Origin: Ilumatobacteraceae bacterium
Lineage (GTDB): Bacteria; Actinomycetota; Acidimicrobiia; Acidimicrobiales; Ilumatobacteraceae
NCBI GenBank assembly: GCA_033344875.1
Contig: JAWPMO010000001.1
Span: forward strand, 4,303,595 to 4,367,594
Direction of reading: 5' to 3'
Length of the DNA stretch: 64,000 bases
Part shown: positions 39,164 to 46,082 of the stretch, in pieces
Layout of the letters: each line of letters opens with the position of its first letter
Position numbering within the stretch: the stretch's first letter is position 1
Program-made: the position numbers and the translations under genes
The notes under the pieces: generated by a model
Databases searched by the model: none
Told to the model about the DNA's origin: nothing
What the model saw: the letters and a program-made list of their open reading frames with translations, nothing else

Positions 39164-39871
39164 TCAGGCGGTGGCCCAGATCAGCACCTCGGCGCCGTCG
39201 TCGCCGGCGGTGAACCGGAGACCGTCGGCTTCGACGAGGCGCGCCGCGTCACCGGTGCCGAGCCGCCCACCCGGATCGAGGTCGCCGGAGCCCCGGGCGA
39301 CGAACACGTGGACGTGACGGTCGTCGGGCACGTCGGCGCTCGCGCCGGCGTCGAGCCGAGCGGCCCACAGCACGGCCTCGCGCTGATGGATCGTGATCGC
39401 GGCGTCGTGGCCCTTGCCGGATGCGACGGGGACCAGCCCGCCGCTCGCCAGCTCGGCGCCGACGTCGAGCTGTTCGTAGCCGGGGTCGATGCCGTCGGTG
39501 TCCGGCGGCACCCACATCTGGAGGAAGTGGACGTCGGTCGTCGAACTCGGGTTGCGTTCGCTGTGACGGATGCCGGTGCCGGCCGACATGCGCTGCGCAT
39601 GGCCGGGCACGATCACGCCGTGGTTGCCCTCGGAGTCGCGGTGTTCGAGTTCGCCCGAGAGCACCCACGTGACGATCTCCATGTCGCGATGCGGATGGGT
39701 GCCGAACCCGGTGCCGGCTCGCACGATGTCGTCGTTGTGGACGAGGAGCAGCCCGTGGTGCGTGTTGCCGGGGTCGTAGTGGGGCCCGAAGCTGAAAGAG
39801 TGCTTCGAGTCGAGCCAGTCGATCTTGGTGGCGAAGCGCTCACCGGCCCGGCGGATGTTGATCTGCGTCAT
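39164..39871 (-). CDS. Pirin-family bicupin protein
   Basis: 235 aa. The metal ligands of pirin are all present: H59 and H61 in GTHPHRDMEIVTW, and H103 and E105 in AGTGIRHSERN. The second cupin lacks ligands, as usual. Bacterial pirins (YhhW type) can act as quercetin 2,3-dioxygenases, but many have unknown roles in redox or stress control. Start ATG 39871. Divergent from the MoaD/ThiS-like gene, with a palindromic repeat in the gap. Confidence 0.9.
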   Translation of the reverse strand: MTQINIRRAGERFATKIDWLDSKHSFSFGPHYDPGNTHHGLLLVHNDDIVRAGTGFGTHPHRDMEIVTWVLSGELEHRDSEGNHGVIVPGHAQRMSAGTGIRHSERNPSSTTDVHFLQMWVPPDTDGIDPGYEQLDVGAELASGGLVPVASGKGHDAAITIHQREAVLWAARLDAGASADVPDDRHVHVFVARGSGDLDPGGRLGTGDAARLVEADGLRFTAGDDGAEVLIWATA

Positions 39872-39997: not shown

Positions 39998-40273
39998 GTG
40001 GTGGAAGTCGAGTTCGCCAAGGCCTTCCGGCGTCACGTCGACTGCCCGAGCGCGTCCGTCGACGCGGGGTCCGTTCGTGAGGCGTTCGAGGCGTACTTCG
40101 CCGCGCATCCCGCCGTGCGCAGCTACGTGCTCGACGACGCCGGCGCGGCCCGCCAACACGTCGCGGTCTTCCTCAACGACGACCTGATCGTCGATCGGTC
40201 CACGCTGACCGACACGGTCGTCGACGGCGACCGACTCCACGTCTTCCAAGCACTCTCCGGAGGTTGCACATGA
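39998..40273 (+). CDS. MoaD/ThiS-like ubiquitin-fold protein ending GGCT
   Basis: 91 aa, beta-grasp fold (VEVEFAKAFRRHV, HVAVFLNDDLIVDR, TVVDGDRLHVFQALSGG). MoaD and ThiS carry sulfur as a C-terminal Gly-Gly thiocarboxylate. Here Gly88-Gly89 are followed by two more residues, Cys-Thr, so the Gly-Gly tail is masked; in QbsE of quinolobactin synthesis a similar GGCF tail is trimmed by a JAMM protease. The gene overlaps a BNR-propeller gene by ATGA and the Gly-Gly codons double as that gene's GGAGG ribosome site. No molybdopterin or thiazole genes are nearby, so a cofactor role is not indicated. GTG start at 39998 (40001 also possible). Confidence 0.8.
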   Translation: MVEVEFAKAFRRHVDCPSASVDAGSVREAFEAYFAAHPAVRSYVLDDAGAARQHVAVFLNDDLIVDRSTLTDTVVDGDRLHVFQALSGGCT

Positions 40274-41379
40274 GCACCCAGGCACTGATCGGCACCCGCA
40301 AGGGCCTGTTCACGGTCACATTCGACGGCGACAGCGCGTCGCTGGCCGCGCCCGCCTTCCTCGGGGCGCCGGTCACCAACGCCGTCCATGACCCGCGAGA
40401 CGGAGCGCTCTACGCATCGCTCGACCACGGGCACTTCGGTGTCCACCTCCACCGCAGCGACGACGGCGGAGCGACCTGGGTCGAGATCGCGGCGCCCGAG
40501 TACCCGGCCAAGCCCGATGGCGTCACCCACGTGAATCCGATGTCCCAGCAGGAGATCGCCTGGACGACGAAGCTCGGATGGGTGATCGAGCCCGGTCACG
40601 CCGACGAGCCCGGCGTGCTCTGGTACGGCACGATCCCCGGCGGCCTGTTCCGCTCGGACGATCGCGGTGACTCGTGGCAGTTCGTCGACTCGTTCTGGGA
40701 TCTCCCGGCGCGTGTCAAGTGGTTCGGTGGCGGATTCGACGACGCCGGCATCCACTCGATCGCGATCGATCCACGTGGGCCGGGTCGTGTGGTCGTCGGT
40801 ATCTCGTGCGGCGGCGCGTGGCGCACCGACGACGGGGGAGCGACCTGGACGGTGGCGGCGAAGGGCATGCGCGCTGACTTCGTGCCGCCCGGCCTCGAGG
40901 ACGACCCTGACACGCAGGACCCACACCGCGTCGTCCGGTGTGCCGACGCGCCCGATGTGCTCTGGACCCAGCACCACTGCGGCATCTTCAAGTCGGTCGA
41001 CAATGGCGACTCGTGGTCGGAGATTCCGGAGGCCGGCCCGTCGACCTTCGGGTTCGCCGTCGCCGTCCACCCGCACGATCCCGACACCGCCTGGTTCGTG
41101 CCGGCGATCAGTGACGAAGTGCGTGTGCCGGTCGACGGCAGGCTCGTGGTGACGCGCACCCGAGACGGCGGCGAGACGTTCGACGTTCTTTCGCAGGGCC
41201 TGCCCAGCGACGCCGCGTACGACCTCGTCTACCGGCACGGCCTCGACATCGACGAGACCGGCGAGCGCCTGATCATGGGCTCCACCACCGGCAGCCTGTG
41301 GTGGAGCGCGAACGGAGGCGACGACTGGCAGACCATCTCCACGGGTCTGCCACCCATCGCCTCCGTCCGTCTCTGCTGA
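40270..41379 (+). CDS. BNR/Asp-box beta-propeller (sialidase-like) protein
   Basis: 369 aa, no signal peptide. Asp-box motifs SxDxGxTW recur: RSDDGGATWVEI, RSDDRGDSWQFV, RTDDGGATWTVA, KSVDNGDSWSEI, RTRDGGETFDVL and WSANGGDDWQTI, about six in all, which predicts a propeller of sialidase/YVTN type. The catalytic residues of true sialidases are not evident, so it is not called as a glycosidase. It is translationally coupled (ATGA) to the ThiS/MoaD-like gene, an arrangement I recall in other actinobacteria, with unknown function. The 41384-41398 hairpin follows. Confidence 0.8.
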   Translation: MSTQALIGTRKGLFTVTFDGDSASLAAPAFLGAPVTNAVHDPRDGALYASLDHGHFGVHLHRSDDGGATWVEIAAPEYPAKPDGVTHVNPMSQQEIAWTTKLGWVIEPGHADEPGVLWYGTIPGGLFRSDDRGDSWQFVDSFWDLPARVKWFGGGFDDAGIHSIAIDPRGPGRVVVGISCGGAWRTDDGGATWTVAAKGMRADFVPPGLEDDPDTQDPHRVVRCADAPDVLWTQHHCGIFKSVDNGDSWSEIPEAGPSTFGFAVAVHPHDPDTAWFVPAISDEVRVPVDGRLVVTRTRDGGETFDVLSQGLPSDAAYDLVYRHGLDIDETGERLIMGSTTGSLWWSANGGDDWQTISTGLPPIASVRLC

Positions 41380-41417: not shown

Positions 41418-42863
41418 TCAGCCCGTGACGGGAATCGCGAGCAAGAACGTCACACGGGCGGTGTAGACCGGCTCGGGGCCCGATTCGTCGGGCTGGTCCA
41501 ACGCGGTGATCATGCGGCCGGTGATACCGGTGAAGTCGCCGGTCGCATCGGTGATCGTCGTGGTGAACGAGATGTCGCCGTTCGCACTGCCGGTCCACTC
41601 CTGGTACATCGTGAGTGTCCCGGTGCCGATGCCGTCGATCGTGCCCGTGAACACGAGGTCGTCGTAACCGTTCGCCGGCGTGAGTTCGATGCCGGTGGAA
41701 GCGATCTCGCCGGTCAGGTCGCCGGTGATCGTGAAGGTGCCGGAGCGCTCGATCGTCCCGTCGGCCAGCTCGGTTCCTTCGCTGCGCGGCGTAGTGTACG
41801 AAGCGAAGAACTGCTCCCGCAGCGGCACCCGAGCGGTGCCGCCCTCGATCACGGGTGCCGGCTCACCGAACACGATGCTGTCGACGATCGGCTGAACGAT
41901 GTCGGCGAACCATGCTTCCTCGTCATCCAGGTTGGGGATCGCCAGGATCACGACCGGTTCGAACTCGCCCATGTCGACGAGCCAGATCGAATGCAGTCGG
42001 TCACGGGCGAACGGCACCGGCGTCTGGTCGTCAGCGACCAGGTCGGCTGATCCATTGGCTGCCCACAGGCACGGCACCTCGCTGGGCGGGCACCAGTCGG
42101 CGGTCGCACCAGGTGTGGTGTCGAGCCGGACCTGGCGGTACTTCGCCGGCCGGCCGCCGACCTCGACCTCGGCGCTGTCGACGACGATGACCCCGTTGGC
42201 CGCGATCCAGCCGTCGAGGTCGTCGCCAGGAATGCTGCCTGCGCCCCGATGTTGCTCGTCGCGGGCCTCGTCGAAGTTCATCCATGATCCGATCCGTCCG
42301 AGCGCGATGAATTCTCGGGCGGTGTCGTCCGACCAGATCTGGACGCCGTTCTCGTCGTTCGAGATCACGGTCCACGGTGCGGTGGAGCCCTCACCCAACT
42401 CGATCGTGAACGGCGTGCCGATGGCAGCGCTGGCGTACACGCCCGGATCGACCAGCACCCCGACAGCCGGGAACGGCGGTGCCGAGGGCTCGGCGATCGG
42501 TTCACCCGTGAGCTGCCCGTCGGCGGTCTGCTCGTCGGGTGTTGCGGAATCGGTGGTCTGTTCGTCGGCGCCGTCGGGAGCGACGGTCGGTGTGGGTACG
42601 TCGGCAGGGAGTTCCTCGCCGTCGCCTCGATTGACGAGGGCGATCCCGGTGATGGCCAGCGCAGCAACGGCGGCGGCCGCCGCGACGAGGGGCCAACGTC
42701 GCTTGGTGAGTGTGTTGTCCGTGAGCATGATGATCTCCGTTTCGGTGTTGGGTGCCCGGTCGGCGATCCGCTGTTGGATCTCCTCCCAGGCAGTCGGAGA
42801 TGGAGAGACCCGCTCGGCGATCACGCTGAGGTCGTGGTCGAATTGTTCGTCGAAGCGACTCAT
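41418..42863 (-). CDS. Membrane partner (putative anti-sigma) of ECF sigma 1
   Basis: 481 aa. The cytoplasmic N-terminus (MSRFDEQFDHDLSVIAERVSPSPTAWEEI...) is followed by one membrane helix (WPLVAAAAAVAALAITGIALV, about 55-76), an acidic Thr/Pro linker and an extracytoplasmic region that ends with one beta-barrel-like module around GIGTGTLTMYQEW and ITDATGDFTGITGRM. There is no zinc HxxxCxxC anti-sigma motif, so the anti-sigma role is inferred from topology and from the ATGA overlap with the sigma gene. It is a paralogue of the protein at 43543-45591: the N-terminus and TEIIMLTDN segment match. Confidence 0.75.
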   Translation of the reverse strand: MSRFDEQFDHDLSVIAERVSPSPTAWEEIQQRIADRAPNTETEIIMLTDNTLTKRRWPLVAAAAAVAALAITGIALVNRGDGEELPADVPTPTVAPDGADEQTTDSATPDEQTADGQLTGEPIAEPSAPPFPAVGVLVDPGVYASAAIGTPFTIELGEGSTAPWTVISNDENGVQIWSDDTAREFIALGRIGSWMNFDEARDEQHRGAGSIPGDDLDGWIAANGVIVVDSAEVEVGGRPAKYRQVRLDTTPGATADWCPPSEVPCLWAANGSADLVADDQTPVPFARDRLHSIWLVDMGEFEPVVILAIPNLDDEEAWFADIVQPIVDSIVFGEPAPVIEGGTARVPLREQFFASYTTPRSEGTELADGTIERSGTFTITGDLTGEIASTGIELTPANGYDDLVFTGTIDGIGTGTLTMYQEWTGSANGDISFTTTITDATGDFTGITGRMITALDQPDESGPEPVYTARVTFLLAIPVTG

Positions 42864-43363
42864 GGCGTGAGCTCCTTTCGCATGGTGGCCAACGCTCGTC
42901 GCAGATGTGACCTGACGGTCGCCGCTGGCTGCTCGGTGATCCTGGCGATCTCAGAGGCCCGGTAACCGCCGTAGTACTTCAACACCACGACGATGCGTTG
43001 ATGCTCGGGAAGGATGTGCAGCACGTCCCAGAGCAACTCGGCCGACGCTGGAAGGTCGGCCGGTGGCTCCGGTGGGTGCATCTGCATCAGCCGTCGTCGT
43101 CGGATGACCGACCCGCACCTGCCCACCACGATGGTGCGGAGATACGCGCCGGGCTTCCCAATCCGGGTGTCCGGGTCGTCGAGTCGGATCGAGATGTCCA
43201 CGAAAGACTCTTGGACGACCTCTTCGGCTTCGGCAGCATTCCCGATGAGCGTGAATGCGAGACGCACCATGCCGGTGTACTCGGCGCGGTACAGCACCTC
43301 GAGCGTGGCGGCGGGCCCCTGTCGGACCGCCACGTTCTCGGACTGTCGCATTCTCTCCATCAC
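42860..43363 (-). CDS. ECF RNA polymerase sigma factor (SigE-family-like) 1
   Basis: 167 aa. Region 2 (YRAEYTGMVRLAFTLIGN, then EEVVQESFVDIS) binds core polymerase and the -10 element; region 4 (LPEHQRIVVVLKYYGGYRASEIARITEQPAATVRSHLRRAL, in parts) binds the -35. Overlaps its partner gene by ATGA. The upstream region carries TGCATC (43397-43392) and CGTAGA (43371-43366) in the same spacing as the paralogous sigma gene, which suggests a shared, possibly autoregulatory promoter. Start GTG 43363 or ATG 43360. Confidence 0.9.
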   Translation of the reverse strand: MMERMRQSENVAVRQGPAATLEVLYRAEYTGMVRLAFTLIGNAAEAEEVVQESFVDISIRLDDPDTRIGKPGAYLRTIVVGRCGSVIRRRRLMQMHPPEPPADLPASAELLWDVLHILPEHQRIVVVLKYYGGYRASEIARITEQPAATVRSHLRRALATMRKELTP

Positions 43364-43365
43364 CC

Positions 43366-43397
43366 TCTACGTCGTCCGAGACCGAAGAAGTGATGCA
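43366..43397 (-). promoter_or_regulatory. Probable ECF-type promoter of sigma gene 1
   Basis: TGCATC and CGTAGA, 20 bases apart, match TGCAAC and CGTAGA at 46113-46082 upstream of the paralogous sigma gene. About 26 of the last 40 bases before GTGATG are identical in the two leaders. CGTAGA ends within 2 bases of the start codon, so any transcript would be leaderless. Confidence 0.5.
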
Positions 43398-43542
43398 AAG
43401 AAATTTCCGGTGTCGACGATCACGGCACGAACCGAGCCGCCTCAGTGTTGCACGTGGGCCGCGGTGTCGACTCGCGGGCCACGCGAGGCCGCCGTCGAGA
43501 TCCGTCAGATCCCGACGGCGACGCCGCGTCAGTTCGGTGTGT

Positions 43543-45591
43543 TCAGGGGAGGTGCAGCTCGACGGTGGCCGTGGCCTCGAGCTCGGACCCCTGCGCCAGC
43601 ATCCATCCGCCGGCGCCCAGGAAATCGCCCGTGCCGCCGATGATGGCGGCCGCTTCCGACCGGTACCCCGACTCGTCGACGCGAGACACGGTGCGGAGTA
43701 CGAGCGTGCCGGTGCCGACGCCTTCGATCGTGCCCGAGAACGGCCGGTCGATGTTCGTGGTGTCGATGCCGTTGTCCGAGACGCTGGTCCCGACCCAAGG
43801 TGCCTGGCCGGTCAGCTGCCCGGTGTAGGTGGTCACGCCGGTCCGCAGGAGTGACCCGTCTTCCTGCACGCTCTCGACGATGTCGGAGTCGCTGGACGAC
43901 GTCGTCAGCTCGAACACCCTCGACGGTTCGGCCGGGACGTCGGGAACCTCGATGTCGAGCTGGTAGCCCCCGGTCTCGAACTGCACGAAGCCGCGTGCTC
44001 CCGCCAGGTCGCCGGTTCCGTCGGTGATGGCGGCGACCGAGAAGAACGGTCCGGTTCCGGTCGAGTAGATCTCCCGGAACGTCATGGTCCCCTCGCCGAT
44101 GCCGGCCACCGAGCCGGTGAACTCGACGACTGCACCGCCGTCGCTGCCGGTGTCGGTCTCGTGCGGTGTGCGCGTCCCGGTGCCCTGTCCGATGCCGTCC
44201 AACACGCCGACGAACGTGGTCGTGTACGTGACATCCAGCGTGCTGTCGCCAGTGCGGGGTGTCTCGGCGTACCCCTCGTCTGACCAACTGCCCGTCGCCG
44301 TGACGTGTTGCATCCTCGGCCCCGGCACGAGCGTCGTGACCCCCGACCAATCGACGTCGATGCCCGCGGGGCCTCCGTAGGCGATCAAGCTGCCCGTGTA
44401 GCCATCGAATGCGCCCGTGGCTCCGGTGAGGTAGTGCCGGCTGGACAGGTGCGGGTCTTGGCTCCAGAAGACGACCCATTCCAGGGTGCCCGTGCCGAAG
44501 CCGTCGAGTGTCAGCTCCTGGGTGTCGCGGCCGATCCCGAACGAGGTCCTCGAGTCCGGGTCCACCCGGTGGCCGACCCCGCGCCGGGCGACGGCCCCGC
44601 CAGCGTCGGTGTGGGTGGCCGTGGACACCGACGTGACGGTGTCCGGGTCGCCGTCGTCGATCGGTGTGAACGTCGTGATCGAGCGCGAGGCGCCGCCGAT
44701 GGTGATGACGCCGCCTTGGTCGACGGTCCAACCCCGGTCGGCGTCGGCCTGTGATGGAAGGGTCAACTCGAGCGAGTAGTCGCCGGCCGTCTCGACTTTG
44801 TCGGTCGCGGGGTTGTCGCGGCCGTCGGGGGCCAGGTAACTCCAGGTGCCGGTCGCACCGAAGAAATCGCCGGTGCCGGCGGTGACGACGCCGGTGTGCT
44901 CGGAGGCCCCGGTGTACTTCGATGTCCATTGCTCGTCGATGATCAGCCGGCCCTCGCCGATGTCGGTGATCCTGACATCGAGGACGAGGTGGTTGTTCCC
45001 GACGAGGCCGTCGTCGGCATCGTTGATTCGGTAGCTCCCTTCGGCGAGGGCGGTGCCAAGGAGGTCTCCGGTGATGACGTCGTCGCCGCTGAAGCTGCCG
45101 GCACCGTCATCTCCCGACGGGACGAAGTCCAGGACAGCGGACAACGTGCCGGCGAGCGACATCGAGCGCGGCACGGTCGCTGCTGCCGCCTCTCCCGCCG
45201 CATTCTGATCGGTCTCCGCCTCCGGTGTCGGTGTCGGATCGGCGCCGTCGGTGTCCGGCCCGGTGTCGGGCCCGGTGTCGACATCGTCGTCCGGTTCGGG
45301 GATGGCGATGGTCTCGGGCGTCGGCGTGTCGGCCGGGTCGTTGGCGTCGTCATTGCGGTTGACGAGGGCGACGCCGCCGATGACGAGCGCCAGTACCGCG
45401 GCTGCCGCCGCGAGCACGGGCCAGCGTCGGGGCCTGGTGGTGTTGTCCGTGAGCATGATGATCTCCGTCTCCTGAGGTGGGTCCTGGTCGATGATCCGGC
45501 GTTGGATCTGCTGCCAGGCGTGGGGTGACGGGGCGGCTCGGTCGGCGATCACGTGGAGGTCGCGCTGAAGCGTGTCTTCGAAGCGACTCAT
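43543..45591 (-). CDS. Membrane partner (putative anti-sigma) of ECF sigma 2, with four barrel-like repeats
   Basis: 682 aa. The N-terminus (MSRFEDTLQRDLHVIADRAAPSPHAWQQI and ETEIIMLTDN) matches the paralogue at 41.4 kb, then one membrane helix (WPVLAAAAAVLALVIGGVALV) and an acidic Thr/Pro linker. The outer part has four units ending in GIG.GT...... TGDF.G..G: around DIGEGRLIIDEQWTS, GFGTGTLEWVVFWSQ, GIGEGTMTFREIYS and GVGTGTLVLRTVSR. They resemble small beta-barrels of the allene-oxide-cyclase-like type; this is inference. Overlaps its sigma gene by ATGA. It probably senses a signal outside the cell. Confidence 0.72.
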   Translation of the reverse strand: MSRFEDTLQRDLHVIADRAAPSPHAWQQIQRRIIDQDPPQETEIIMLTDNTTRPRRWPVLAAAAAVLALVIGGVALVNRNDDANDPADTPTPETIAIPEPDDDVDTGPDTGPDTDGADPTPTPEAETDQNAAGEAAAATVPRSMSLAGTLSAVLDFVPSGDDGAGSFSGDDVITGDLLGTALAEGSYRINDADDGLVGNNHLVLDVRITDIGEGRLIIDEQWTSKYTGASEHTGVVTAGTGDFFGATGTWSYLAPDGRDNPATDKVETAGDYSLELTLPSQADADRGWTVDQGGVITIGGASRSITTFTPIDDGDPDTVTSVSTATHTDAGGAVARRGVGHRVDPDSRTSFGIGRDTQELTLDGFGTGTLEWVVFWSQDPHLSSRHYLTGATGAFDGYTGSLIAYGGPAGIDVDWSGVTTLVPGPRMQHVTATGSWSDEGYAETPRTGDSTLDVTYTTTFVGVLDGIGQGTGTRTPHETDTGSDGGAVVEFTGSVAGIGEGTMTFREIYSTGTGPFFSVAAITDGTGDLAGARGFVQFETGGYQLDIEVPDVPAEPSRVFELTTSSSDSDIVESVQEDGSLLRTGVTTYTGQLTGQAPWVGTSVSDNGIDTTNIDRPFSGTIEGVGTGTLVLRTVSRVDESGYRSEAAAIIGGTGDFLGAGGWMLAQGSELEATATVELHLP

Positions 45592-46082
45592 GGTGTGAGC
45601 TCCTTGCGCATCGACTTCATCGCCCGTCGCAGGTGCGATCGGACGGTGGCGGCGGGCTGGTCGGTGATCTTGGCGATCTCAGCGGCCCGGTATCCGCAGT
45701 AGTACCGGAGTACGACCGCGATGCGTTGATGTTCGGGAAGTTGCTCCAGGACGTCCCACAGCGACTCGACCTCCGGAGGAAGGTCCGACGGTCGAGTCGG
45801 TGGGTTCTGGCGCATGAGGCGGCGGCGTCGAAGTACTGACCGGCACCTGCTCACCACGACGGTGCGCAGGTAGGCGCCGGGTTGTCCCAGGTCGTCGAAG
45901 CGTCGCGAGATCTCCAGGAACGAGTCCTGAACGACCTCCTCCGCCTCTGCGTTGTTCCCGATGAGCGTGAATGCGAGCCGTACCATGCCGGTGTACTCGG
46001 CGCGGTACAAGACCTCGAGCGTGGCGGCGGGCCCCTGTCGGACCGCCACGGCCTCGGTGTCTCGCACGTACCCCATCACCAT
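45588..46082 (-). CDS. ECF RNA polymerase sigma factor (SigE-family-like) 2
   Basis: 164 aa, close paralogue of the sigma at 42.9 kb: both have VAVRQGPAATLEVLYRAEY and a region 4 of the LPEHQRI...YRA.EI pattern. Region 2 and region 4 are complete. The start may be ATG 46082, GTG 46079 or ATG 46076; the paralogue alignment favours 46079. TGCAAC (46113-46108) and CGTAGA (46087-46082) lie upstream, as in the paralogue. The overlap with the partner gene is ATGA. Confidence 0.9.
   Translation of the reverse strand: MVMGYVRDTEAVAVRQGPAATLEVLYRAEYTGMVRLAFTLIGNNAEAEEVVQDSFLEISRRFDDLGQPGAYLRTVVVSRCRSVLRRRRLMRQNPPTRPSDLPPEVESLWDVLEQLPEHQRIAVVLRYYCGYRAAEIAKITDQPAATVRSHLRRAMKSMRKELTP

Follow-up and report, generated by a model that had tools for sequence, protein, structure and literature searches.

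To our knowledge, each known ThiS/MoaD-like carrier has been understood through a dedicated partner (ThiG, MoaE, CysM, MetY or TtuA). ThiG, MoaE, CysM and MetY act as acceptors for their own carriers. The CysO-CysM-Mec+ system of Mycobacterium tuberculosis combines a β-grasp carrier ending in Gly-Gly with a MoeZ-type E1, a dedicated partner, the PLP cysteine synthase CysM, and a JAMM peptidase encoded in the genome. In the QbsE/QbsD (PDTC cluster) and HcyS/HcyD (Pseudomonas, Wolinella) systems, the Gly-Gly of the carrier is followed by further residues that are thought or known to be removed by a JAMM protein. SAMP1 of Haloferax volcanii, a further relative, is an archaeal protein modifier. 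QbsE-type systems encode JAMM, E1 and acceptor enzymes in one operon core, and a role of JAB peptidases in releasing ThiS/MoaD domains from fusions was proposed by Iyer et al. (PMC1779556). MoeZR of mycobacteria sulfurates both MoaD and CysO (PMC3227635).

The locus described here lies in the window, that is, the whole 64,000-nucleotide stretch of Ilumatobacteraceae DNA that was analysed, and encodes a ThiS/MoaD-like carrier with a single partner of a different kind, an Asp-box (BNR) propeller (Table 1). It shares with CysO-CysM-Mec+ the Gly-Gly-containing β-grasp carrier, the MoeZ-type E1, the dedicated partner and the genomic JAMM, and the fold of CysO is among the best structural matches of the window carrier. 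However, its partner is a propeller and not a cysteine synthase, and the genome encodes CysO and a JAMM-CysM pair separately. Residues after Gly-Gly and a JAMM in the genome are features common to the window carrier and QbsE or HcyS, yet JAMM and E1 are not part of the window operon, in which only the propeller is linked. SAMP1 is closest by sequence, but its equivalog cut-off is not reached. By analogy, the window carrier would thus be CysO-, QbsE- or HcyS-like in its working while being a member of none of these systems. No prior description of the carrier-propeller pair was found in the open-access literature, although one may exist elsewhere. The suggestion in the initial annotation that this might be an undescribed system holds only with regard to the function of the pair: both genes are already annotated and the structure of the propeller family has been solved (3b7f).

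Table 1 Features of the carrier-propeller locus (positions in the window).
Feature	Position	Strand	Details or basis
ThiS/MoaD-like β-grasp carrier	39998..40273	+	91 aa, GTG start; Pfam ThiS; fold model
Codons GGA GGT for Gly-Gly in the conserved QALSGG end	40259..40264	+	sequence, alignment
Two-codon extension Cys-Thr masking Gly-Gly	40265..40270	+	alignment with sister genome L008
ATGA start/stop overlap of carrier and propeller	40270..40273	+	sequence
Seven-bladed Asp-box (BNR) propeller	40270..41379	+	369 aa, no signal peptide; 3b7f family

A ThiS/MoaD-like carrier coupled to a seven-bladed propeller

Profile matching and a predicted β-grasp fold place the carrier in the ThiS/MoaD superfamily. 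Pfam ThiS (PF02597) matches at 26 bits, above its cut-off of 22.5. The best NCBIfam match is SAMP1 with 41.7 bits, below the 60-bit equivalog cut-off, and the archaeal MoaD and ThiS profiles also match below cut-off. In a phmmer search, three SAMP1 entries were the closest solved relatives by sequence (E 1e-4). The structure model (pLDDT 82, tail disordered) has CysO, MoaD and SAMP1 as its top structural matches (Z 9-13), CysO (Z 12-13) and SAMP1 (Z 12) being nearest; a MoaD-related protein and Urm1 match as well, and SAMP1 is also among the top Foldseek matches. A GTG at 40001 is an equally possible start. The protein ends in ...HVFQALSGGCT, in agreement with the ThiS/MoaD-like protein with a GGCT tail that had been read from the DNA initially. 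Gly-Gly (G88, G89), which does not vary among 40 homologues, precedes Cys-Thr, and the bases of its two codons double as the GGAGG Shine-Dalgarno sequence of the propeller gene. Viral contigs searched with the carrier contained no relative.

The overlapping propeller has six Asp boxes, at residues 63, 129, 186, 242, 297 and 346. Both this number and the ATGA overlap had been recognized correctly in the initial annotation; the number of blades was corrected to seven based on the structure model (pLDDT 94) and its match to PDB 3b7f (Z 49.2, 1.7 Å over 348 residues, 35% identity). With a full-length profile match of E 1e-76, the protein is a member of the 'YP_299179.1' (3b7f) Asp-box family. This family, described from Cupriavidus, consists of functionally uncharacterised seven-bladed Asp-box propellers, and its description reports no partner and no MoaD (PMC2716378). 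The partner of a widespread carrier has a solved yet unexplained structure. The window propeller is cytosolic and has no signal peptide.

Residues K11, H162, S179, H219, Q234, H236 and R322 of the propeller are invariant. According to strand order and secondary structure in the model, the Asp boxes occupy the C-D turns on one side, and the invariant residues are located at A-strand starts and B-C turns, opposite the Asp boxes. Asp-box glycosidases have their active sites on the face opposite the Asp boxes (PMC2716378). Invariant histidines such as these are commonly seen in catalytic or ligand sites. GH33 sialidases and GH74 xyloglucanases have the same Asp-box propeller fold, but GH33 enzymes have six blades and a FRIP motif with the first arginine of the triad, which the window propeller lacks, and GH74 enzymes differ in having two tandem propellers.

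Conservation of the carrier-propeller pair

The distribution of the pair was analysed in a species-level scan (one genome per species) using the window-type propeller subfamily, the diverse alignment being too variable. The scan yielded 449 propeller relatives, and in 77 of the best 80 of these the carrier is encoded directly upstream. The pairing, initially noted for a single locus, extends far beyond the lineage of the window and spans Actinomycetota, Acidobacteriota, Planctomycetota, Verrucomicrobiota and Proteobacteria; the nearest named relatives of the window pair are found in Ilumatobacter and other Acidimicrobiia. Within the window's order, 30 of 148 genomes encode the propeller and 28 of these 30 loci include a carrier, mostly downstream. 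In another phylum (that of G151), the propeller is present in 102 of 297 genomes and the carrier in 85 of the 90 propeller loci inspected, and in another class (that of G173) the carrier lies beside the propeller in 26 of 27 cases. A few propellers in these samples lack an adjacent carrier. Three unpaired cases occur among the best 80 relatives (L054, L068 and L070). At L054, the propeller is truncated and follows a transposase-like ORF. L068 and L070 come from two related planctomycete-type genomes with the same propeller subfamily and no adjacent carrier.

Of 173 typed loci, 94 have the carrier upstream of the propeller, 77 have it downstream and two encode a fusion of both; the two genes share their strand throughout, and the median gap is about 19-26 bases. 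The two natural fusions (L157 and L162) retain Gly-Gly at the junction, reading QAISGG followed by APDEAELLAGTKKGL and RGISGG followed by SGADAAEAGEAEG..., respectively. In plasmid records, the propeller adjoins 10 of 11 carrier matches. Analysis of the neighbours around pair loci revealed no conserved third gene, and E2 or ligase genes are absent from the recurrent neighbours. Because no third gene is common to these neighbourhoods, we consider the propeller to be the partner of the carrier. The conservation of the pair indicates more than chance, and side-by-side encoding in hundreds of species from several phyla argues that carrier and propeller almost certainly work together.

Masked tails and JAMM peptidases

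The GGCT tail of the window carrier is a lineage-specific accident caused by a one-base indel, since the carrier of sister genome L008 ends with a stop directly after Gly-Gly and differs by one base. At this place L008 has GGAGGC-TGA-C-ATG and the window has GGAGGT-TGC-ACA-TGA; the extra base in the window removes the stop and yields Cys-Thr. Conservation of this particular tail, on which the initial proposal had partly relied, was not observed: even the sister genome lacks GGCT, and most carrier relatives end exactly at Gly-Gly. Other carriers are extended by AT, AA, T, ATS, STA, S, SRAGREV or AATPTKGNA, by long tails or by whole fused proteins. As these sequences are dissimilar, the extended tails appear to be mostly independent in origin. 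All of these extended or fused carriers retain Gly-Gly and the reading frame.

The complete window genome (4.97 Mb) encodes four ThiS-family proteins, a single Prok-JAB (JAMM) protein (86 bits), 222 kb from the pair, and a single ThiF-family E1 of MoeZ-like size, 48 kb from the pair. The JAMM gene (L037) is followed by a gene for a CysM-like cysteine synthase, and the separate CysO-like protein (L039, C1:2649651) ends in AVAGG. The carrier/E1/JAMM toolkit therefore exists in the cell, apart from the pair. An E1 is found in 41 of 42 pair genomes. About half of the pair genomes are without a strong JAMM, and there free tails predominate.

Proteins scoring at least 60 bits were counted as true JAMM, a threshold chosen after the bimodal score distribution had been seen. 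In the first set, JAMM was present in 23 of 24 genomes with extended tails versus 69 of 149 with naked tails (P 1.5e-6). Of 15 tail gains inferred from the propeller tree, 14 map to JAMM-positive branches (P 0.0055 by branch length). A follow-up set assembled later contained three extended-tail genomes, two of them JAMM-positive; by itself, this set does not reach significance (P 0.14). When both sets and one additional extended locus were combined, JAMM was present in 26 of 28 cases with a masked tail and in 73 of 170 with a naked one (P 3e-7), a correlational result in which relatedness was controlled through the gene tree only. The two extended-tail genomes without a strong JAMM are G010, which is 70% complete, and G772, which has an in-frame stop in the propeller. 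The suspected involvement of a JAMM peptidase thus stood as far as masked tails and JAMM occur in the same genomes, but no JAMM gene lies next to the window pair. This correlation is expected if a JAMM protein must expose Gly-Gly, and it points to a maturation by JAMM peptidases of carriers whose genes lie at other places in the genome. It may partly be phylogenetic, because JAMM is encoded outside the operon and, in many of these genomes, acts on CysO as well.

Several individual loci show unusual carrier ends. On the minus strand of L155 (G321), an open frame of 895 aa leads from the carrier through SGG into a TypA/BipA-like GTPase, in a genome with a strong JAMM; the two are either truly fused, or the stop of the carrier has been lost ahead of a GTG start inside the frame. 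The carrier ORF at L201 (G420, 1836-2492) continues at least 121 residues past Gly-Gly into an apparent membrane segment, and JAMM is present in this genome. The related genomes G675 and G772 (L222, L223) have a common 17-residue tail; in G772, no JAMM was detectable and the stop inside the propeller is a TGA. In Nonomuraea (L045, 4063-4374), the propeller-adjacent carrier ends in PALA and has no Gly-Gly, possibly reflecting loss of carrier function.

Proposed function of the pair and alternative explanations

We hypothesize that the two genes form one functional module with a carrier of the ThiS/MoaD/CysO type, whose working end would be a free C-terminal Gly-Gly. In the window protein, Cys-Thr would be removed, most likely by the only JAMM of the cell, which is Mec+-like, to expose Gly-Gly. 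The single ThiF-family E1 would next adenylate the exposed end and probably also convert it to a thiocarboxylate, and the carrier tail may dock on the propeller at its conserved face. Carriers that are encoded beside their acceptor provide the analogy by which the propeller could be a dedicated acceptor enzyme or a receptor. This proposal, in which a carrier trimmed by JAMM and activated by E1 passes sulfur to a dedicated propeller partner or docks on it, is tentative, its probability falling just short of even. Slightly more doubtful is the wider claim of a widespread two-component system in which JAMM matures those carriers that have a masked Gly-Gly, and the carrier transfers sulfur, or itself, to the propeller for a reaction not known from other carrier partners. 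The reaction is probably related to sulfur, with no sulfur gene consistently linked to the pair. In the fused forms, Gly-Gly is joined to the propeller and a carrier role would require cutting. If the wider claim is true, the propeller would be the first of its fold to act as acceptor for a prokaryotic ubiquitin-like protein.

Alternatively, the carrier may be a protein modifier conjugated to lysines like SAMP1 or Urm1, the propeller its adaptor or reader, in charge of target selection or of binding the modifier, and JAMM the enzyme that both matures and removes it. Propellers are common adaptors in eukaryotic systems, a precedent that such a role would fit. Conjugation would also agree with SAMP1 being the closest solved relative by sequence and the best NCBIfam match, and the association of tails with JAMM fits a maturation or deconjugation enzyme. 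We nevertheless regard a modifier as unlikely given that the SAMP1 score stays below its cut-off, that about half of the pair genomes do without a strong JAMM and E2 or ligase genes do not recur, and that the propeller histidines resemble those of a catalytic or ligand site.

Marginally less likely still is a carrier that acts as a permanently docked or regulatory subunit, its Gly-Gly tail sitting in the propeller structurally and never being activated by E1. The natural fusions, the tight ATGA coupling and the near-fixed two-gene unit without a third gene are all consistent with such non-covalent binding. Yet activated carriers are characterized by Gly-Gly at their very C-terminus, and here even extended tails retain it, and a purely structural tail leaves the excess of free tails where JAMM is missing unexplained.

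It is also conceivable, but improbable, that Cys-Thr is a neutral or slightly harmful accident that leaves the protein masked, the association between tails and JAMM being a by-product of phylogeny. A single base separates the window from its sister and JAMM is almost universal in the window's order, as such an origin would predict; however, the association spans several phyla and at least 15 inferred gains, of which 14 lie on JAMM-positive branches, and the conservation of Gly-Gly and frame in all extended forms also speaks against it.

Finally, a true sialidase or glycosidase next to an unrelated carrier, as could be read from the Asp boxes and from public records (exo-alpha-sialidase for the propeller, MoaD/ThiS family protein for the carrier), is virtually excluded by the missing FRIP-like motif (0 of 72 homologous sequences), on which a sialidase identity was rejected, by the lack of a signal peptide, by seven blades instead of six and by pairing across phyla. 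The 'sialidase' label is misleading.

Genomic neighborhood of the pair

As stated in the initial annotation, no thiamine, molybdenum cofactor (molybdopterin) or cysteine gene is adjacent to the window pair. Upstream lies a divergent pirin gene (39164-39871, minus strand). A pirin gene divergent from the pair is also found at L047 and L048, that is, in three Ilumatobacter-type genomes in all. At two other loci (L076, 4383-5663; L099, 3804-5126), a MetY-like O-acetylhomoserine sulfhydrylase is encoded upstream of the pair. These neighbours hint at sulfur metabolism but are not general; MetY was rejected as a general neighbour as it is confined to these two related genomes (MAGs). Downstream of the window pair, an ECF sigma-factor unit follows (41418-46082), in which two tandem ECF sigma-factor genes are each followed by a gene for one large protein. 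The two large proteins are alike at their start and have little or no Pfam match, and the region looks like a duplicated sigma/regulator-effector unit.
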